From: Roseateles sp.
GTDB lineage: Bacteria; Pseudomonadota; Gammaproteobacteria; Burkholderiales; Burkholderiaceae_C
Assembly: GCF_019237615.1 (NCBI RefSeq)
Contig: NZ_JAFAGT010000012.1
Location: 55,899 to 119,898, forward strand
Length of the DNA stretch: 64,000 nucleotides
Direction: 5' to 3'
Shown here: piece by piece, positions 23,758 through 41,590 of the stretch
Layout: every line of letters starts with the position of its first letter
Position numbering within the stretch: the first letter of the stretch is position 1
Translations under genes and position numbers: made by a program
Notes under the pieces: model-generated
The model's database searches: none
Seen by the model: the letters and a program-made list of their open reading frames with translations, nothing else
What the model was told of the DNA's origin: nothing

Positions 23758-23854
23758 TGCGGGAACTTTCGGCTTGAAATCGCTCTAAGCAGGGTCCGTC
23801 CGCGGTGCCTGCCATGGGTGCCGGGAGGTCCACAGAGGCGACATATCGCGCCGC

Positions 23855-23860
23855 TACACT
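23855..23860 (+). promoter_or_regulatory. Putative -10 box of the eps operon
   Basis: TACACT in CGCTACACT, 33 nt before the epsD ATG. No convincing -35 is visible, which would fit an activator-dependent promoter. Confidence 0.4.
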
Positions 23861-23892
23861 CGTCCGCTCACTTGGGGCAGGAGGCCCTTCCC

Positions 23893-24885
23893 ATGCATCA
23901 CAAGGACCCGCATCAGATGGCTCACCGACTGATTAACAACCGTGTCTTCCCGCTGCTGGCTGTCGTTGCCGCCACGGCGCTGTTGGTGGCCTGCGGGGGT
24001 GACAAGGGCGACAAGGCCTCCCAGACGGCCGCCAAGGTCAACAAGGAAGAGATCACCGTCCACCAGATCAATTTCGTGCTGCAGCGCCAGCCCGGCCTCA
24101 AGCCCGAGCAGGCCGAGGCCGCGAGCCGCCAGGTGCTGGAGCGGCTGATCGACCAGGAACTCGCGGTGCAGAAGGCCCAGGAGCTCAAGCTCGACCGCGA
24201 TCCGCGCGTGGTGCAGCAGATCGAAGCCGCCAAGCGCGAGATCATCTCGCGGGCCTACGCCGAGCGCGTCGGCGAGAGCGTCGCCAAGCCCGGCAACGAG
24301 GACATCGCCAAGTACTACAACGACAAGCCGGCGTTGTTCAAGGACCGCCGCATCTACAGCCTGCAGGAGCTGCAGATCGAGGCCAAGCCCGAGCAGTTCG
24401 AGGCGATCCGCGCCAAGCTGGCCGCCGCCAAAAGCCTCAACGAGTTCGCCGAGTACCTGAAGTCCGCCGAGCTGCGCTTCAGCGGCAACCAGGCCGTGCG
24501 CGCCGCCGAGCAGCTGCCGCTGGCCAGCGTGGACGCCATCTCTCGCATGAAGGATGGCGATTCCATGATCAGCCCGAACCCCGCAGGGCTGACGGTGCTC
24601 TTCCTCGTCGGCTCGCGCAGCCAGCCGGTGGACGAGGCGCGCGCGCGCCCTGCCATCGAGGCATTCCTGCTGAACCAGCGCAGGGCCGAGGCGCTGCAGA
24701 AGGACATCAAGGCGCTGCGCGACAGTTCCAAGATCGAATATGTCGGCAAGTTCGCGCAGCCCGCGCCTGCCGGCACGCCCGCGCCGCAGGCCGCCTCCGA
24801 GCCTGCGGCCCCGGCCCCGGCCCCGGCCCCGGCGGCCAGCGGCCTCGACCACGACGCCATCTCCAAGGGCATGGGCCTGAAATGA
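23893..24885 (+). CDS. epsD: EpsD family peptidyl-prolyl cis-trans isomerase lipoprotein
   Basis: First gene of the plus-strand EPS operon (330 aa). The N-terminal signal ends in the lipobox LLVACGG, then a SurA-like N-domain (KVNKEEITVHQINFVLQRQPGLKPEQAEAASRQVLERLIDQELAVQKAQELKL). A parvulin-like region follows, and an Ala/Pro tail ends the chain. EpsD proteins occur in exosortase-associated EPS loci and probably help fold or assemble the export machinery in the periplasm. GGAGG about 9 nt before ATG 23893 decides the start. The stop overlaps epsE (ATGA). Confidence 0.88.
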   Translation: MHHKDPHQMAHRLINNRVFPLLAVVAATALLVACGGDKGDKASQTAAKVNKEEITVHQINFVLQRQPGLKPEQAEAASRQVLERLIDQELAVQKAQELKLDRDPRVVQQIEAAKREIISRAYAERVGESVAKPGNEDIAKYYNDKPALFKDRRIYSLQELQIEAKPEQFEAIRAKLAAAKSLNEFAEYLKSAELRFSGNQAVRAAEQLPLASVDAISRMKDGDSMISPNPAGLTVLFLVGSRSQPVDEARARPAIEAFLLNQRRAEALQKDIKALRDSSKIEYVGKFAQPAPAGTPAPQAASEPAAPAPAPAPAASGLDHDAISKGMGLK

Positions 24886-25715
24886 TGCGGCGCGTGCAGG
24901 AACTGCTTCTCGCTGCCGCGCTCGGCCTCGGCGCCCTGGGCGCGCAGGCGCAGGCCGGTGCGCCCGCCGCCGCGGCAGCGGCCGAGTACCGCTTCGGTGC
25001 GGGCGACGTCGTGCGCGTCGTCGTCTACCAGAACCCCGACCTGACGCTGGAGACCCGGGTCTCCGAGACCGGCGTCATCAGCTACCCGCTGCTGGGCAGT
25101 GTGCGCATCGGTGGCCTCGGTGTCAGCGCCGCCGAAAAGCTCATCGCCGACGGCCTGAAGAACGGCAACTTCGTGAAGGCGCCCCAGGTCACGCTGATCC
25201 TGCTGCAGATCAAGGGCAACCAGGCCAGCGTGCTGGGCCAGGTCAATCGTCCGGGCCGCTACCCGATCGAGACGACCGACATGCGCATGACCGACCTGCT
25301 GGCCAATGCCGGCGGCGTGGCCACCACCGGCGGCGACATCGTCGTGCTCAGCGGCACGCGTGGCGGCAAGCCCTTCCGCATGGAGATCGACCTGCCCAGC
25401 GTCTTCGGCCCCAATACTGCGGCCGGTGGCGCCAGCGACGTGCTGATCCAGAACGGCGACGTGCTGTGGGTGGACCGCGCGCCGCTGGTCTACATCTACG
25501 GCGAGGTGCAGCGTCCCGGCCCGATGCGGCTGGAGCGTGGCATGACGCTGATGCAGGCCCTTGCCTCCGGTGGTGGCCTGAACCAGCGCGGCACGGAGCG
25601 TGGCATCCGCGTGCACCGCAAGTCGGCTGACGGCAAGGTCCAGGTCGTGCAGCCGGGCATGGACGACAGCCTCAAGGAGGGCGATGTGGTCTACGTCAAG
25701 GAAAGCCTGTTCTGA
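24882..25715 (+). CDS. epsE: Polysaccharide export protein EpsE (Wza-like OPX)
   Basis: Outer-membrane polysaccharide export protein of 277 aa. Signal peptide to AQAQ, then the Poly_export domain (YRFGAGDVVRVVVYQNPDLTLETRVSETGVISYPLLG) and SLBB domains (VLGQVNRPGRYPIETTDMRMTDLLANAGG and a second, VYIYGEVQRPGPMRLERGMTLMQALASGGG). It lacks an obvious lipobox and C-terminal amphipathic helix, so the outer-membrane pore may need EpsL. Coupled to epsD. Confidence 0.93.
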   Translation: MMRRVQELLLAAALGLGALGAQAQAGAPAAAAAAEYRFGAGDVVRVVVYQNPDLTLETRVSETGVISYPLLGSVRIGGLGVSAAEKLIADGLKNGNFVKAPQVTLILLQIKGNQASVLGQVNRPGRYPIETTDMRMTDLLANAGGVATTGGDIVVLSGTRGGKPFRMEIDLPSVFGPNTAAGGASDVLIQNGDVLWVDRAPLVYIYGEVQRPGPMRLERGMTLMQALASGGGLNQRGTERGIRVHRKSADGKVQVVQPGMDDSLKEGDVVYVKESLF

Positions 25716-25736: not shown

Positions 25737-27158
25737 ATGACCTTCGGACAATTCATTGCCATCCTGCGCGCACGCTGGATGCTTGCCCTGGGCGTGCTGC
25801 TCGGGATCGTGCTCATCAGTGTCGCGCTGAGCCTGACTCTGCCCAAGCAGTACACGGCGACGGCCAGCATCGTGGTCGACGCCAAGCCGGATCCGTTTTC
25901 GGCACTGGGCTATCCGTCCATGGTGACGCCGGCCTTCATGGCCACGCAGGTCGACATCATCCAGAGCGATCGTGTCGCCCAGCGCGTCGTGCGCATGCTG
26001 AGGCTGACCGAGAACCCGCAGGTCCGCAAGCAGTGGATGGATGCGACCGGTGGTGAGGGCAGCATGGAAGCCTGGCTGGCCGACAGCTTCCAGAAGAAGA
26101 TGGACGTCAAGCCCTCGCGCGAGTCCAACGTCGTCAGCGTCTCCTACAAGGCCCCCGATCCGAAGTTCGCGGCAGGCCTGGCCAATGCCTTCGTCCAGGC
26201 CTATCTGGACACCGTGCTGGAGTTGAAGACCGATCCGGCCAAGCGCTACAGCAGCTTCTTCGACGCCCGCTCCAAGGAGGCCCGTGACACGCTCGAGGCG
26301 GCCCAGACCAAGTTGAGCGCCTTCCAGCGCGAGAAGGGCATCTTCAACGCCGATGAGCGCCTGGACGTCGAGAACGCGCGCATGAGCGAGCTGTCCTCCC
26401 AGCTGGTGGCCTTGCAGGCTGTCTCGGCCGAATCCGTCAGCCGCAATGCCCAGGCCAGCGGCTCTTCGGCAGACCGCCTGACCGAGGTTCTGAACAGCCC
26501 CATCGTGGGTCAGCTCAAGGCCGATCTCGCGCGCTCGGAAGCCCGTCTGCAGGAACTGAGTGCCCGTCTGGGCGACAGCAATCCGCAGGTCATCGAGCTG
26601 AAGGCCAACATCGCCGAGACCAAGCTCAAGATCGCCGACGAAACCCGCCGCATCACCGGTGGCGTGGGCGTCACCAACACGATCAACAGGCAGCGTGAGG
26701 CCCAGGTCCGCTCGGAGCTCGAAGCCCAGCGCACCAAGGTGCTGCACATGAAGCAGGTCCGCGACGAAGGCTCCGTGCTGATGCGCGACGTTGACAACGC
26801 ACAGAGGGCCTATGACGCCGTGCTGGCGCGCTTGACGCAATCCAGCCTGGAAGGCCAGGCCACGCAGAGCAACGTGTCCGGCCTGACCGTGGCGCTGCCG
26901 CCGCCGGACCCGTCCTTCCCGAACCTGACGCTGAACCTGCTGCTGGCCGTGTTCGGCGGCACGCTGCTGGGCGTGCTGGTGGCCTTCATCAAGGAGATCA
27001 CCGACCGCCGCATCCGCCTGGTCGAGGACCTCACGGTGGGCCTGGGGATTCCCGTCATCGGCGTGATGCCCAAGCCGGGTTCGAAGAAAAAGGGCCGCCT
27101 GGCGATTGCCGACGCACAGCGTCGCGTGGTCGGTCAGCTGCCGAACCCCGCCAAGTGA
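25737..27158 (+). CDS. epsF: Chain-length determinant EpsF (Wzz/PCP family)
   Basis: Inner-membrane polysaccharide co-polymerase of 473 aa. An N-terminal transmembrane helix (MLALGVLLGIVLISVALSLTL) opens into a Wzz domain, a long periplasmic coiled coil, the PPPDPSFPNLTLN Pro-rich segment and a second helix (LLLAVFGGTLLGVLVAFI). A short cytoplasmic tail KPGSKKKGRL follows. PCP proteins set polymer length together with a tyrosine kinase, here the next gene. Confidence 0.93.
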   Translation: MTFGQFIAILRARWMLALGVLLGIVLISVALSLTLPKQYTATASIVVDAKPDPFSALGYPSMVTPAFMATQVDIIQSDRVAQRVVRMLRLTENPQVRKQWMDATGGEGSMEAWLADSFQKKMDVKPSRESNVVSVSYKAPDPKFAAGLANAFVQAYLDTVLELKTDPAKRYSSFFDARSKEARDTLEAAQTKLSAFQREKGIFNADERLDVENARMSELSSQLVALQAVSAESVSRNAQASGSSADRLTEVLNSPIVGQLKADLARSEARLQELSARLGDSNPQVIELKANIAETKLKIADETRRITGGVGVTNTINRQREAQVRSELEAQRTKVLHMKQVRDEGSVLMRDVDNAQRAYDAVLARLTQSSLEGQATQSNVSGLTVALPPPDPSFPNLTLNLLLAVFGGTLLGVLVAFIKEITDRRIRLVEDLTVGLGIPVIGVMPKPGSKKKGRLAIADAQRRVVGQLPNPAK

Positions 27159-27200: not shown

Positions 27201-28082
27201 ATGACCGACGCTAACGCCGGGCAATCCATGGCGGGGACCGAGGTCCGCGACCGTTCGATCGGCGCCATCATTGCCGAGACGCGCGATCTGTCGGCCGACC
27301 AGGTCGACCGGGTGCTGGCCTATCAGCGCGATCACAACGTCCGCTTCGGCGAAGCCGCCATTGCGCTGGGCTATGCCAATGCCGACGACGTGCTGTTCGC
27401 GCTGGCGCAGCAGTTCCACTATCCCTATGCGCCGGAAGAGTCGCGCCACCAGAATCCCGAACTGATCGCGCTGAACCAGCCTTTCTCGCCACAGGCGGAA
27501 GTGTTCCGCGCCGTGCGCAGCCAGGTGATGATGCGCGTCTTCAACGAGCCCGACGCGCCCCGTCGCGCTGTCGCGGTGGTGAGCCCCAACCAGGGTGATG
27601 GCAAGACCTTTTTCGCGGCCAACCTGGCCGTGGCGCTGGCCCAGCTCGGCGGCCGCACGCTGCTGGTGGATGCCGACATGCGCGGCCCGCGTCAGCACGA
27701 GGTGTTCGGTGTGCCCAACACCCATGGTCTGTCGGGCATCCTGTCCGGTCGAGCCGAGGGCCAGTTGATCCAGCAAGTCACGGCCGTGCCGGGTCTGTTC
27801 CTGCTGCCCGTCGGCATCACGCCGCCGAACCCGCTGGAGCTCATCGAGCGTCCGGCCTTCGGCCTGCTGCTGCGCGAGCTGCTGGTCAAGTTCGACTACG
27901 TGATCGTCGACACGCCCGCCGCCGAGCTCGGCGCCGACTCGCTGGTCATCGCCGCCCGTTGTGGTGCCGCGCTGCCCGTGGCGCGCAAGAGCGAATCCAA
28001 GCTGGACATGTTCCAGGAGCTTGTCCAGGGCCTGACCGACGCCTCGACCAAGATCGCTGGTGCGGTGCTGAACGAGTATTGA
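27201..28082 (+). CDS. epsG: EpsG tyrosine-kinase-like ATPase with MshEN-like N-domain
   Basis: BY-kinase family protein of 293 aa. Residues 128-136 form Walker A (SPNQGDGKT), 154-162 Walker A' (LLVDADMRG), and FDYVIVDTPAAE is Walker B. The usual C-terminal tyrosine cluster is absent; the chain ends in a single Tyr. Residues 19-42 and 48-71 are two 24-residue units separated by five residues. The second, RFGEAAIALGYANADDVLFALAQQ, closely follows the MshEN c-di-GMP-binding motif, and the first has Ser where Arg is expected. It acts with EpsF in chain-length control. Confidence 0.9.
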   Translation: MTDANAGQSMAGTEVRDRSIGAIIAETRDLSADQVDRVLAYQRDHNVRFGEAAIALGYANADDVLFALAQQFHYPYAPEESRHQNPELIALNQPFSPQAEVFRAVRSQVMMRVFNEPDAPRRAVAVVSPNQGDGKTFFAANLAVALAQLGGRTLLVDADMRGPRQHEVFGVPNTHGLSGILSGRAEGQLIQQVTAVPGLFLLPVGITPPNPLELIERPAFGLLLRELLVKFDYVIVDTPAAELGADSLVIAARCGAALPVARKSESKLDMFQELVQGLTDASTKIAGAVLNEY

Positions 28083-28152
28083 TCGGGAACGGCGACGCAG
28101 GGCGATGGACGGGTCTTGGACGGATCGAACCGGCGTTGCAGCGAGGGAGACC

Positions 28153-29010
28153 ATGTCGACGCTGACGCGTGAGGACAAGGGCCTGCTGGGCCTGCTGCTG
28201 CTGGGCTTCGCGGCCCTGTACCTGCCCACCTACTACGGGCTGGCCCATACGGTCTGGGCCAGCGACGAGCAGGGCCACGGGCCCATCATCCTGGCCGTCA
28301 GCCTGTGGCTGCTGTACCAGCAGCGCAGTGCGCTGGCGGCGCTGCAGGCGCGCCCGGCCTACGGGGCCGGCGCGGCGGTGTTCCTGTTCGCGCTGCTGCT
28401 CTACACCTTCGGGCGTTCGCAATCGATCTACCTGTTCGAGGTCTCCTCGCAGATATTCCTGCTCGCCGGCGGCACGCTGCTCGTCCTGGGCTGGCGCGGG
28501 CTGAGGCTGATCTGGTTCCCGCTGTTCTTCCTCATCTTCATGGTGCCTCTGCCCGAGGTGCTGGTGACCGCCGTCACGACGCCGCTGAAGTCGGCCGTGT
28601 CGGCCGTGGCGTCCAGCCTGCTGTACTGGGCCGGCTACCCGGTCGGCCGGGCCGGCGTCATCATCACGGTGGGCCAGTACCAGTTGCTGGTCGCCGATGC
28701 CTGCGCGGGCCTGAACTCGATGTTTACGCTCGAGGCGCTCGGCATGCTCTACATGAAGCTGATGAACTACACCTCGGCCGGCCGCAACATCACGCTGGCC
28801 CTGCTGCTGGTGCCGATCTCCTTCGTCGCCAACATCGTTCGCGTGATGGTGCTGGTGCTGGTGACCTACCACTTCGGTGACGCGGCGGGCCAGGGCTTCG
28901 TGCACGGCTTCGCGGGCATGGTGCTGTTCCTGGTCGCGCTGATGATCATGCTGGTCGTGGACAAGCTGCTCAACCTGTTCTGGCCCGGCAGCCGGCAAGT
29001 CAAGTCATGA
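28153..29010 (+). CDS. xrtB: Exosortase (XrtB-like)
   Basis: Polytopic membrane cysteine protease-transpeptidase (285 aa, about eight hydrophobic segments) that processes PEP-CTERM proteins. The catalytic Cys is in VADACAGLNSM (about residue 184), the Arg in ANIVRVMVL (about 230) and the His in GFVHGFAGMVLF (about 251). The B subtype is inferred from epsI, epsG and epsL in the same locus. The start at 28153 is chosen over 28105 because GAGGGAG lies directly upstream. It overlaps epsI (ATGA). Confidence 0.92.
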   Translation: MSTLTREDKGLLGLLLLGFAALYLPTYYGLAHTVWASDEQGHGPIILAVSLWLLYQQRSALAALQARPAYGAGAAVFLFALLLYTFGRSQSIYLFEVSSQIFLLAGGTLLVLGWRGLRLIWFPLFFLIFMVPLPEVLVTAVTTPLKSAVSAVASSLLYWAGYPVGRAGVIITVGQYQLLVADACAGLNSMFTLEALGMLYMKLMNYTSAGRNITLALLLVPISFVANIVRVMVLVLVTYHFGDAAGQGFVHGFAGMVLFLVALMIMLVVDKLLNLFWPGSRQVKS

Positions 29011-29687
29011 AGCTCAATCGCATGGTCGTGGGGGTGATGACGGCGCTGATGCTCGCCTCCAGCGGCGCGTCGCGCTACATGACGCCGACCGAGCACCTGG
29101 CCGACAAGGTCGGCAAGCCCGACCTCGAAACGCTGTTCCCCAGGCAGTTCGGCGTCTGGCGCGTCGACGCCAACGTGCCGGTCATCCTGCCCGCGCCGGA
29201 CGTGCAGGCACGCCTGGACGCGATCTACAACCAGGTGCTCAGCCGTACCTATGTCGATGATCGCGGACAGCGCATCATGCTGTCGGTCGCCTATGGCGGC
29301 GACCAGTCCGATGGCACGCGCATCCACCGGCCCGAGGTTTGCTATCCGGCGCAGGGCTTCCAGATCCTGTCCAACCGGGTTGATCACATCGGCATGCCGG
29401 GCCGCGAGCCGCTCAAGGTGCGCCGCCTCGAGTCCAAGCTGGAGCAGAGGCTGGAGCCCATCACCTACTGGGTGGTCGTGGGTGACAGTGTCGTCGTCTC
29501 GGCGTCCGAGCAGAAGCTGGCGCAACTGCGCTATGGCCTGCGGGGCGTGATCCCGGACGGCCTGCTGGTGCGGGTTTCCTCGATCGACCCCGAGGCGAGC
29601 CGGGCCTTCAGCCTTCAGCAGCAATACATCGCCGATCTTGCCCGTTCGCTGACGCCGCAGGCCAGCCTGCGGGTGTTTGGTAAGTAG
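29007..29687 (+). CDS. epsI: EpsI, exosortase-associated protein
   Basis: Protein of 226 aa with one N-terminal membrane or signal segment and the EpsI hallmark IHRPEVCYPAQGF. EpsI domains accompany exosortases, either fused to the C-terminus or as the next gene, and are needed for EPS production or sorting by an unknown mechanism. Here it is separate and translationally coupled to the exosortase. Confidence 0.92.
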   Translation: MKLNRMVVGVMTALMLASSGASRYMTPTEHLADKVGKPDLETLFPRQFGVWRVDANVPVILPAPDVQARLDAIYNQVLSRTYVDDRGQRIMLSVAYGGDQSDGTRIHRPEVCYPAQGFQILSNRVDHIGMPGREPLKVRRLESKLEQRLEPITYWVVVGDSVVVSASEQKLAQLRYGLRGVIPDGLLVRVSSIDPEASRAFSLQQQYIADLARSLTPQASLRVFGK

Positions 29688-37837: not shown

Positions 37838-38895
37838 GCAGCCGGCGTCCATGGATGGTCGGTACCGACCCGGCCGGCCAGGGCGGCATCGCGGCCGTCA
37901 TCAGCGTCTATCTGCAGCAGGGCTGGATGGCGCGCCACGGCGTGCGCTATCTGGTGAGCCACCGGGCCGGCTCGGCCCTGGCGCGTGCCCTGCTGTTCCC
38001 CTGGGCATTGCTGCAACTGCTGGCCGCCTTGCTCGCGGGTCGCGTGAGCGTGCTGCACGCCCAGGTGGCAAGTTATGGCAGCTTCGCGCGCAAGTCGCTG
38101 CTGCTCGCGCTGGCACGGGGCTTTGGCGTGCCCACCGTCTTCCACCTGCACGGTGCCGAGTTCCAGAAGTTCTATGCCGGCTCGCCGGCCTGGCGCCAGC
38201 GCTGGATCCGTCACTCGCTGCGCCGCAGTACCCGTGTGCTGGCCTTGTCCGAGGCCTGGCGCGACTTCCTGCTCACCATCGTGCCCGAGGCCCGGGTGTC
38301 GGTGCTGGCCAACCCGGTGGCCTTCCCGCCGCCGCAGCCTGAGGCGCGGTCGGTGCCGGGCCGCGTGCTGTTCCTGGGGCGCGCGGACCAGCGCAAGGGC
38401 ATCTTCGACCTGCTCGCTGCGTTGGGCCAGGCGCGGGCGCAACTGCCGCATCTGCACCTGCATGTGGGTGGCGATGGCGACCTGGATGCGGTGCGCGCAG
38501 CCGTCGCTCGCGAGGGCCTGGACGACGCGGTCACGCTGCTGGGCTGGGTGCGCGGTACGGCCAAGGAGCGCGAGCTGGCCGAGGCCGAGATCTTTGTGCT
38601 GCCGTCCTATGACGAGGGCCTGCCGATGGCCATGCTGGAGGCCATGGCCCGAGGCAAGGCGGTGCTGACCACGCCGGTGGGCGGTATCCCGCAGGCCGTG
38701 CGTGACGGGGTGGACGGCGTGCTGGTGCCGCCGGGCCAGCCGCAGCAACTGGCCGCGGCACTGCTCCGGCTGGGCCGCGATGCCCGGTTGCGCGCTGCGC
38801 TGGGCGCGGGCGCCGTCGCGCGCGTGCGCACCTGCTACGCGACCGACACGGTGCTGGCCGAGCTGGACCACGTCTACCAGGGGCTGGGCGCGTGA
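37834..38895 (+). CDS. Family 4 (GT-B) glycosyltransferase
   Basis: Glycosyltransferase of 353 aa. VGTDPAGQGGIAAVISVYLQQG is a typical GT4 N-terminus, then VFHLHGAEFQKFY, RVLFLGRADQRKGIFDLLAAL and the E-x7-E region FVLPSYDEGLPMAMLEAMARGKAVLTTPVGG, which is well conserved. Overlaps both neighbours (ATGA and GTGA), so it belongs to the operon. Confidence 0.93.
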   Translation: MSSRRPWMVGTDPAGQGGIAAVISVYLQQGWMARHGVRYLVSHRAGSALARALLFPWALLQLLAALLAGRVSVLHAQVASYGSFARKSLLLALARGFGVPTVFHLHGAEFQKFYAGSPAWRQRWIRHSLRRSTRVLALSEAWRDFLLTIVPEARVSVLANPVAFPPPQPEARSVPGRVLFLGRADQRKGIFDLLAALGQARAQLPHLHLHVGGDGDLDAVRAAVAREGLDDAVTLLGWVRGTAKERELAEAEIFVLPSYDEGLPMAMLEAMARGKAVLTTPVGGIPQAVRDGVDGVLVPPGQPQQLAAALLRLGRDARLRAALGAGAVARVRTCYATDTVLAELDHVYQGLGA

Positions 38896-40841
38896 GCAGC
38901 AGCCAGGAAGCACAGGGCCGCTGGCGCTGGCTGTGGAACCGCCTGCGCTGCATGACGCCGGTGGAGGTGGTGCATCGGGCCGCGCGCGCCGCGACGGCGG
39001 CACGACGCCAGCGCCTGATGGCCGAGCCGGTGCCTGCGCCCGCCCTGGTGGAGGCGCCGCGCTGGGTGCAGGTGCCGCCGGCGTCCGAGCAACTGGTGGC
39101 CGGGACGACCCCGTATCTGGACGAGGCGGGCGCGCTGCATGCCGGCCGGGTGCGGCTGTTCGAGCGCGAGCGCTTCGACGTGGGCGTGGAGCCCGACTGG
39201 CTGCGCTGCCCGCTCACCGGCGTGACGGCGCCGCTGAGGCCGGCGCGGCGCATCGCCATCACCGACCGTGCCCAGGTGGGGGACATCAAGTACCTGTGGG
39301 AGCTGAATCGCCACCTGCAATGGGTGACGCTGGGGCAGGCCTGGGCGCTGGACGGCGACGCTGCGCACCTGGACCTGCTGCGCCGCCAACTGGCCGGCTG
39401 GCTGAAGCAGAACCCGCCGGGGCAGGGCCCCAACTACACGAGCAGCCTGGAGGCAGCCATCCGCCTGGTCAACTGGTCGGTCACCTGGCAGCTGCTGGGC
39501 GGCGCGAACGGCGCGATCTGGCAGGGTCATGAAGCTCTGCGTGGCGCCTGGCTGGAGGCGGTATACCGCCACGCCCGGCAGGTCGCGCGGGCCTACTCCC
39601 GGCATTCGTCGGCCAACAACCACCTGATTGGCGAGCTGTGCGGCGTCTACGTGGCCAGCCGCACCTGGCCCGCCTGGCCGCAGTTGGTGCGGTTGGGCGA
39701 CGCCGCCAGGCTGGAACTGATCGCGCAGGTCGACCGCCAGGTGCATGCCGATGGCGTGCCTGCCGAGCAGGCCTTCGAGTACGCCGGCTTCATCTTCGAC
39801 TTCCTGTGGCTGGCCGAGCGCTGTGCAGCGGCGAACGCCGAGCCCATGCCCGAGGCCTACCGGGCGCGCCTGCGCGCGATGGCCGACTTCGCGCACGCCT
39901 TGGGCGGTGCCAGCGGCGGCATGCCCGCCGTGGGCGACGCCGACGGCGCCGAGGCCCTGCGGCTGGACCCGCGGCCGGGCCGCGAGCCACTGGCCGCCCT
40001 GCTGGAGAAGGAGGCGGCGCTCGGTGATCGCGCCGTGCCGCCCTGGCTGCGGCCGCGCGACGACATCGCCTGGCTGGGACTGGCCCGCCCGCCGGTGGCG
40101 CTGCGGGCGGCTGCCACGCTGGACTTTGACGCCGGTGGCTACGTGCTCTTCGAGGGCGGCCACCTGCAAGGCGGCATGGACGTGGGCCCGCTGGGCTACC
40201 TGGGCATTGCGGCGCATGGCCATGCCGATGCGTTGCAGGTCTGGCTCAGCGTGCAGGGCGAGCCGCTGCTTATCGACCCCGGCACCTATGCCTACTGGGC
40301 CGAAAAGGCCTGGCGCGACTATTTTCGGGGCACCTCGGCGCACAACACGCTGGAGCTGCTGGGCCGCGACCAGAGCGACAGCGGCGGGCGCTTCATGTGG
40401 ACGCGGCATGCCCGGGCACGGCTGCTGCGGCGCGAGCGTTCCGGCCCGGGCCGCCTGCGCGTGGTGGCCGAGCATGACGGCTATGGCACGGCGCTGCTGC
40501 ACAGGCGCGAGCTGGCGGTGGACTGCGAAGCCGGCCGCCTGGAGCTGCGGGACACGACGCCGCGGCCGGTGGCGGCGGCCCTGCATTGGCACCTGGCACC
40601 CGGCTGGCAGTGCGAGCTGCTGGGTGACACCTTGTTGGCCCGCCGGGGGCGCTGGCAGGCGCGGCTGCGCGTGCAGGCCGACGCCCCGGGCGAGCTGGCG
40701 CTGCTGCAGGGGCAGACCGATCCGCCGCTGGGCTGGGCCTCAGGCGCCTATGGCGACAAGCAGCCCAGCCCCGTGCTGCGCTGGCGTGGCACCGCGGCCC
40801 GCTGGAACACCTTCATCGACATCGAATCCCTTTCCGAATGA
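38892..40841 (+). CDS. Heparinase II/III family protein (EPS operon)
   Basis: Protein of 649 aa starting at GTG. It has an alpha/alpha-toroid N-domain (LKYLWELNRHLQWVTLGQAWAL-like, ending with SSANNHLIGELCGVYVA) and the heparinase II/III C-domain with LGIAAHGHADALQVWLSVQGEPLLIDPGTYAYW and FRGTSAHNTLELLG. The latter contain the His residues usual in these lyases. No signal peptide is visible, so its compartment is uncertain. Such genes occur in many EPS loci; lyase or epimerase action on uronic acid polymer is an inference. Confidence 0.88.
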   Translation: MSSSQEAQGRWRWLWNRLRCMTPVEVVHRAARAATAARRQRLMAEPVPAPALVEAPRWVQVPPASEQLVAGTTPYLDEAGALHAGRVRLFERERFDVGVEPDWLRCPLTGVTAPLRPARRIAITDRAQVGDIKYLWELNRHLQWVTLGQAWALDGDAAHLDLLRRQLAGWLKQNPPGQGPNYTSSLEAAIRLVNWSVTWQLLGGANGAIWQGHEALRGAWLEAVYRHARQVARAYSRHSSANNHLIGELCGVYVASRTWPAWPQLVRLGDAARLELIAQVDRQVHADGVPAEQAFEYAGFIFDFLWLAERCAAANAEPMPEAYRARLRAMADFAHALGGASGGMPAVGDADGAEALRLDPRPGREPLAALLEKEAALGDRAVPPWLRPRDDIAWLGLARPPVALRAAATLDFDAGGYVLFEGGHLQGGMDVGPLGYLGIAAHGHADALQVWLSVQGEPLLIDPGTYAYWAEKAWRDYFRGTSAHNTLELLGRDQSDSGGRFMWTRHARARLLRRERSGPGRLRVVAEHDGYGTALLHRRELAVDCEAGRLELRDTTPRPVAAALHWHLAPGWQCELLGDTLLARRGRWQARLRVQADAPGELALLQGQTDPPLGWASGAYGDKQPSPVLRWRGTAARWNTFIDIESLSE

Positions 40842-41590
40842 CCGCCAACCGCATCCAGATCATGGGCTGCAACGTCGACAACCTCAGCATGGAGGAGACG
40901 CTGCAAGTCATCGATGGCTTCATCCGCAGCGGCCGGCCGCACCAGCATGTGGTCGTCAATGTCGACAAGATCGTCAAGGCGCAGCACGACGAGGAGCTGC
41001 GCCGCATCATCAACGACTGCGCGCTCATCAACGCCGACGGCATGCCGGTGGTGTGGGCTTCGCGCTGGCTGGGCAAGCCGCTGAAGGAGCGCGTGGCCGG
41101 CGTGGACCTGTTCGAGGCCCTGATGCGGCGCTCGGCGCAAACCGGCTGGCGGGTCTATCTGCTGGGCGCGCGTGACGAGGTGGTGCAGGGCGTCAAAGAC
41201 CTCTATGAGCGCAAGTACCCGGGCCTGACGGTGGCTGGCGCGCGGGACGGCTACTGGCAGGCCGGCGAGGACGAGGCCGTGGCGCGGCAGATCGCCGATG
41301 CGCGGCCCGACATCCTGTTCGTCGCCATCAGCTCGCCCAAGAAGGAGCAGTTCCTGGGCCGCTATCAGGCCATGATGAAGGTGCCCTTCGCCATGGGCGT
41401 GGGGGGCACCTTCGACGTGGCGGTCGGCAGGGTGAGGCGCGCGCCCGTCTGGATGCAGCGCAGCGGGCTGGAGTGGTTCTATCGCTTCCTGCAGGAGCCC
41501 CGGCGCATGTTCCGGCGCTATTTCATCGAGGACATGGCGTTTGCCGGATTGCTCTGGCGCGAGTGGCGCGCGACAGCGAAGCGAAAATAA
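40838..41590 (+). CDS. wecG: WecG/TagA/CpsF family glycosyltransferase
   Basis: GT26 glycosyltransferase of 250 aa. VVVNVDKIVKAQHDEELRRIINDCALINADGMPVVWASRWLGKPLKERVAGVDLF and ISSPKKEQFLGRY are family signatures. Members transfer ManNAc, ManNAcA or glucose to a lipid-linked sugar. A wecB homologue lies 5 kb downstream, so UDP-ManNAc is a plausible donor (no wecC is seen). Start overlaps the heparinase stop. Confidence 0.9.
   Translation: MTANRIQIMGCNVDNLSMEETLQVIDGFIRSGRPHQHVVVNVDKIVKAQHDEELRRIINDCALINADGMPVVWASRWLGKPLKERVAGVDLFEALMRRSAQTGWRVYLLGARDEVVQGVKDLYERKYPGLTVAGARDGYWQAGEDEAVARQIADARPDILFVAISSPKKEQFLGRYQAMMKVPFAMGVGGTFDVAVGRVRRAPVWMQRSGLEWFYRFLQEPRRMFRRYFIEDMAFAGLLWREWRATAKRK

Follow-up and report, generated by a model that had tools for sequence, protein, structure and literature searches.

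Does EpsG, encoded in an EPS cluster of Roseateles sp., carry a domain through which c-di-GMP could act directly on polymer chain length? Direct control by c-di-GMP is established for synthase-type polysaccharides, through PilZ on BcsA and MshEN on NfrB. The switch generally accepted for Wzx/Wzy-type systems is phosphorylation of tyrosines on the co-polymerase or on its partner. An earlier note on the 64,000-nucleotide stretch analysed here (the window) had described a tandem MshEN-like motif at the N-terminus of EpsG, and proposed that chain-length control responds to c-di-GMP through this BY-kinase.

The epsG gene sits between epsF and xrtB in a cluster of the order epsD-epsE-epsF-epsG-xrtB-epsI (Table 1). 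Its product matched TIGR03029 (EpsG) over residues 17-292 (profile positions 2-274 of 274); the score of 276.7 bits did not reach the cut-off of 313.8, yet the operon context fits EpsG.

Table 1. Genes of the EPS cluster and elements of EpsG, with positions in the window.
Feature	Positions	Strand	Evidence or remark
epsD, peptidyl-prolyl isomerase family	23818..24885	+	TIGR02925 over cut-off
epsE, outer-membrane polysaccharide export protein	24882..25715	+	TIGR03028 over cut-off
epsF, polysaccharide co-polymerase	25737..27158	+	TIGR03017, 523.9 bits, over cut-off
epsG, 293 aa, MshEN_N-like and BY-kinase-like domains	27201..28082	+	ORF, TIGR03029, AlphaFold2 model
EpsG motif I, residues 19-42, SIGAIIAETRDLSADQVDRVLAYQ	27255..27326	+	sequence, NF053729
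EpsG spacer RDHNV, residues 43-47	27327..27341	+	sequence
EpsG motif II, residues 48-71, RFGEAAIALGYANADDVLFALAQQ	27342..27413	+	sequence, NF053729
EpsG linker FHYPYAP..., residues 72-99, into kinase-like domain	27414..27497	+	
EpsG ExxRxxR (E100, R103, R106)	27498..27518	+	invariant in 115/115 relatives
EpsG Walker A SPNQGDGKT (K135)	27582..27608	+	
EpsG Walker A', TLLVDADMRGPR	27657..27692	+	
EpsG Walker B DYVIVDTP	27894..27917	+	
EpsG Tyr293, last residue	28077..28079	+	no tyrosine cluster beyond last strand
xrtB, exosortase B	28105..29010	+	TIGR03113 over cut-off
epsI, B-type	29007..29687	+	NF045609 over cut-off

Relation of the EpsG N-domain to MshEN_N

Both units of 24 residues, and the spacer of five between them, were found where they had been described, with residue 19 starting at 27255 and residue 71 ending at 27413; the spacer between the motifs of MshE is likewise five residues long (PMC5013675). 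NF053729, an NCBIfam model of the MshE-related c-di-GMP motif, aligned its positions 2-53 (of 53) with EpsG residues 20-71. This profile detected the domain at E 1.3e-6, but the score of 28.1 bits fell short of the curated threshold of 38. With Pfam, the EpsG N-domain gave no match up to E 1, and a distant set of 35 EpsG members yielded no match to MshEN or T2SSE_N.

A survey of EpsG homologues with NF053729 found the motif in every member scanned, both in the distant set (35/35, best E 2.6e-14) and in a near set (47/47, best E 3.1e-11), each of which contains the window protein. Eighteen of the 35 distant members also matched the NfrB model. In contrast, NF053729 was absent, at E up to 0.01 and among the families listed, from all eight other BY-kinase-type proteins of the same phylum that served as controls; for three of these the families listed are the best 25 of 26-29. 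When a profile of 44 N-domain sequences was compared with PDB sequences, the top matches were Thermus thermophilus PilF (5.1e-9) and Vibrio cholerae MshE (5htl; 3.5e-7), and both alignments were in register with the EpsG motifs.

Structure prediction likewise pointed to the MshEN fold. AlphaFold2 predicted a four-helix bundle, with helices at residues 20-27, 32-45, 49-56 and 61-71; pLDDT was 69 for the N-domain alone, 89 on average for the full-length protein and 84-94 for blocks of residues 21-70. The nine best Foldseek matches of the N-domain model were all N-domains of PilF, MshE or PilB (MshEN/GSPII-type), the best-fitting ones having an rmsd of 1.7 A over 58 columns. Their E-values (0.5 to 2) are non-significant by themselves, as expected because the domain is small and helical. 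Taken as a whole MshEN domain, the earlier assignment holds for one half: EpsG comprises the MshEN_N half (about 53 residues), and the MshEN_C subdomain is absent. Homology of this N-domain to the ligand-binding MshEN_N subdomain is near certain.

In the same genome, other MshEN-type matches over the cut-off occurred on contig 5 (a PilB/GspE-like ATPase) and on contig 18 (one or more secretion-type ATPases). On contig 18, two adjacent frames at 38999-41196 (L081, L083, L085, L086) have MshEN-type motifs; one carries several tandem motif copies and the second is a secretion-type ATPase.

Ligand-contact positions and possible c-di-GMP binding

In MshE, the ligand positions are Arg9, Leu10, Gly11, Leu25, Leu29 and Gln32 of the first motif, and Arg38, Leu39, Gly40, Leu54, Leu58 and Gln61 of the second (PMC5013675). 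The EpsG equivalents are S19, I20, G21, V35, L39 and Q42, and R48, F49, G50, V64, L68 and Q71. EpsG shares with the MshEN_N of MshE, besides two 24-residue motifs, a five-residue spacer and four predicted helices, the Gly at position 3 (G21, G50) and the Gln at position 24 (Q42, Q71) of both motifs, as well as the motif II Arg. It differs from MshE in having Ser in place of the motif I Arg, Val in place of Leu25 (Ala in most distant members) and Phe in place of Leu39, in lacking MshEN_C, and in that its N-domain sits on a BY-kinase-like domain rather than on a secretion ATPase. The positions of the hydrophobic cluster (Ile20, Val35, Leu39, Phe49, Val64, Leu68) are all hydrophobic, mostly not Leu. 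At the leading Arg position, motif I has Ser19, which lies outside even the set widened to Lys and Leu, and motif II has Arg48. Arg28 occupies the turn of motif I, whose Gly is gone in the EpsG branch of the window.

Across 115 relatives, most of these positions hardly vary: G50 and L68 were kept in all, G21, F49 and Q71 in 114, and Q42 in 105, although Gln42 is replaced in 10 of 34 distant members. Position 48 is Arg in 100 and Lys in 11. Position 19 is Ser in 79, Thr in 13, Ala in eight and Arg in only two, so that the first unit does have Ser for the leading Arg, as had been described, but this is no peculiarity of the window protein: Ser, Thr or Ala is the family rule. The preceding Arg that had been pointed out, R18, occurs in just 63 of the 115 relatives; it was thereby ruled out as a shifted, conserved replacement. 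One natural pair differs at this site, the relative L135 having Arg and its close relative L134 Ser.

Over 96 non-redundant sequences, mean entropy was 0.64 bits at the 12 ligand positions versus 1.68 at the other 41 (one-sided p 2e-4), which points to strong family-wide constraint on the ligand positions of the N-domain. Hydrophobic core positions without ligand contact had a mean entropy of 1.0 bit, and some of the conservation may be structural. The most telling conserved positions are both Gln and R48, since the corresponding residues of MshE are known for contacting the ligand.

Published work on related domains, in which MshEN_N by itself binds c-di-GMP with a KD of 0.35 uM (PMC5013675), points both ways at the leading Arg position. 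PilF GSPII-B binds with a KD of 6 nM despite Lys and Leu at the Arg positions, and GSPII-C binds despite Pro in motif II (PMC11731258); the leading Arg is therefore replaceable. On the other side, the R9A mutation cost MshE 83% of its binding and the mutant did not complement (PMC4624772), although the affinity fell at most fivefold according to a later paper (PMC5013675), and PilF GSPII-A constructs in which Ser, combined with A41, occupied the Arg position of motif II did not bind (PMC12002112). Ser19 of EpsG is neither Arg, Lys nor Leu, which would count against binding, as would Val and Phe in place of Leu25 and Leu39 around the first guanine, the replacement of Gln42 in some distant members and the sub-cut-off NF053729 score of the window protein. 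GSPII-A, -B and -C belong to the same domain family as the EpsG N-domain, and PilF supplied its best PDB sequence and fold matches. EpsG differs from GSPII-B, which has Lys and Leu at the Arg positions, and from the non-binder GSPII-A, which lacks both Gln that EpsG keeps. Weighing these residues, we consider it somewhat probable that the EpsG N-domain binds c-di-GMP. Phe49, near-invariant at the MshE Leu39 spot by the first guanine, could, speculatively, offset the lost Arg stacking. The genome encodes 47 GGDEF matches, none on the contig of the window; therefore c-di-GMP is probably present in the host.

It is a substantial, if rather doubtful, possibility that this descendant of MshEN_N has lost c-di-GMP binding and that it now has a structural or docking function towards EpsF or some other EPS protein. 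The family-wide absence of the motif I Arg, the impairment of MshE by R9A, the sub-cut-off NF053729 score of the window protein and the loss of the turn Gly in its branch would all fit such a history, and two related domains, the XpsE N-domain and PilF GSPII-A, ceased binding through changes of this kind. In these two, however, Gln residues were lost along with Gly or Leu contacts that are otherwise conserved. EpsG proteins have, with few exceptions, retained the two Gly, the two Gln and the Arg of motif II, and Gln42 and Gln71 match MshE residues described as contacting the ligand backbone.

A site retuned for another ligand, e.g. 3',3'-cGAMP or a mononucleotide, in which the changed first half accommodates another base, is improbable. 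The changes do cluster on the Gua1 side, where Arg9 has become Ser, Leu25 Val or Ala and Leu39 Phe, with the Gua2 side largely canonical, and MshEN binds cGAMP weakly (KD 330 uM; PMC5013675). But the glycines whose amides read the guanine edge (G21 and G50) are among the best conserved residues, which argues for guanine on both sides, and independent evidence for a different ligand is lacking. Finally, a chance likeness of two amphipathic helical hairpins, to which the sub-cut-off score of the single sequence, the empty Pfam result and the weak Foldseek E-values might point, is extremely improbable and was ruled out by the NF053729 match, its presence in all scanned relatives and in none of the controls among the families listed, and the PDB profile matches in the right register.

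The kinase-like domain and its likely partner EpsF

The kinase-like part of EpsG matched CapAB and Wzc, and the window protein keeps Walker A, A' and B, as well as ExxRxxR, which we take, from CapB and Wzc, to be the BY-kinase ring-contact motif. With CapB, Wzc, Etk and VpsO it has in common the kinase-domain fold and the three Walker motifs; it differs from them in its extra N-terminal MshEN_N-like domain and in the absence of a C-terminal tyrosine cluster. None of the 115 EpsG relatives has such a cluster: their chains stop 0-3 residues beyond the E292 position, and no more than a single Tyr occurs in that stretch. By comparison, 21 of 24 other BY-kinase-like proteins of the phylum have four to seven tail Tyr. 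Frameshift or truncation of one gene was ruled out as the cause, all 115 relatives stopping at the same place. Relocation of the cluster to EpsF was likewise ruled out, since 65 of 79 EpsF proteins, and also that of the window, are free of Tyr over their final 60 residues.

The Walker A lysine is kept in 79 of 81 members of the window's branch and lost in 34 of 34 distant members, where Arg, Ala, Cys, Thr, Val or Leu replaces it. These 34 form the better-scoring TIGR03029 branch, including those members above its cut-off that were analysed. Thus, the distant EpsG proteins with the best TIGR03029 scores (L089-L092, L094, L119-L147) have neither Walker A lysine nor tyrosine tail. Judged by its residues, EpsG is a tail-less BY-kinase-like protein, not a plain 'tyrosine kinase'; the family name probably misleads annotation, and merits caution across the family. 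Lacking a tyrosine tail, EpsG cannot be switched in cis in the usual way, by tail phosphorylation. A response through the BY-kinase, as the earlier note had it, is hence tenable as far as the BY-kinase-like domain goes, but not by way of tail autophosphorylation.

EpsF is likely to be the partner of EpsG; in 79 of 80 loci, epsF immediately precedes epsG. The genome has three matches to LMW tyrosine phosphatases, none on the contig of the window. Two other short BY-kinase-like proteins (L117, L112) are encoded beside a separate co-polymerase gene; their P-loops are degenerate (GEGRS, SGCTY), and both lack a tyrosine tail as well as an MshEN-like domain.

A possible c-di-GMP switch on EpsF

NfrB of Escherichia coli is a c-di-GMP-activated glycosyltransferase with an MshEN domain. 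Like EpsG, it places this domain on an exopolysaccharide machine; NfrB, however, is a synthase, and EpsG the partner of a Wzx/Wzy-type co-polymerase. EpsG is a new architecture from known parts. In the papers searched, we found no earlier link of EpsG or a BY-kinase with MshEN.

In its logic, the EpsG-EpsF pair looks like the EcpK/EpsV pair. The BY pseudokinases EcpK and HfsB are, like EpsG, stand-alone partners of a separate PCP-2 protein and have no tyrosine tail (PMC12004946). EcpK has lost all Walker motifs and its N-terminus is unstructured, whereas the window EpsG has retained these motifs and carries a ligand-type domain. For EcpK/EpsV, a cycle of binding and unbinding that does not depend on phosphorylation was put forward in 2025, the driver not being identified there (PMC12004946). 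By analogy, the N-terminal ligand domain of EpsG could be the natural driver of an EcpK-like cycle, which makes EpsG a concrete candidate driver for this phosphorylation-independent class, with specific residues.

The mechanism we propose, tentatively and as a whole a little short of probable, is as follows. In EpsG, a short linker connects a ligand domain of MshEN_N type, predicted to have four helices, with a BY-kinase-like domain that stands alone and would work with EpsF, the co-polymerase of the preceding gene. The N-domain would bind c-di-GMP, its affinity altered by the loss of the Arg stacking on the first guanine, and the bound ligand would change EpsG docking on, or assembly with, EpsF; EPS polymerisation and chain length would be changed in turn. 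Bound ligand would then be a natural substitute for the tail-phosphorylation switch. Control of EpsF by c-di-GMP-bound EpsG, the central step, is a plausible reading that we hold with some reserve. The broader view, that in the EpsG family c-di-GMP binding took over from the cycle of tyrosine phosphorylation in switching the co-polymerase ring between assembly and disassembly, and that a second messenger directly sets chain length in a Wzx/Wzy-type system, seems unlikely.

About a quarter of the genomes sampled from the order of the window (71 of 300) encode EpsG relatives at E up to 1e-50. Within the genus, a match was present in 18 of 20 genomes, this one among them. The TIGR03029 cut-off was exceeded in only three of 299 genomes sampled across the phylum. 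Several Aquabacterium genomes have two or more EpsG copies per contig (L036/L078, L062/L067, L063/L064 and others), possibly representing two EPS systems. Downstream in the same EPS region of the window, a heparinase-like protein with weak HepC matches is encoded at 38892-40841, followed by a WecB/TagA/CpsF-type glycosyltransferase at 40838-41590.
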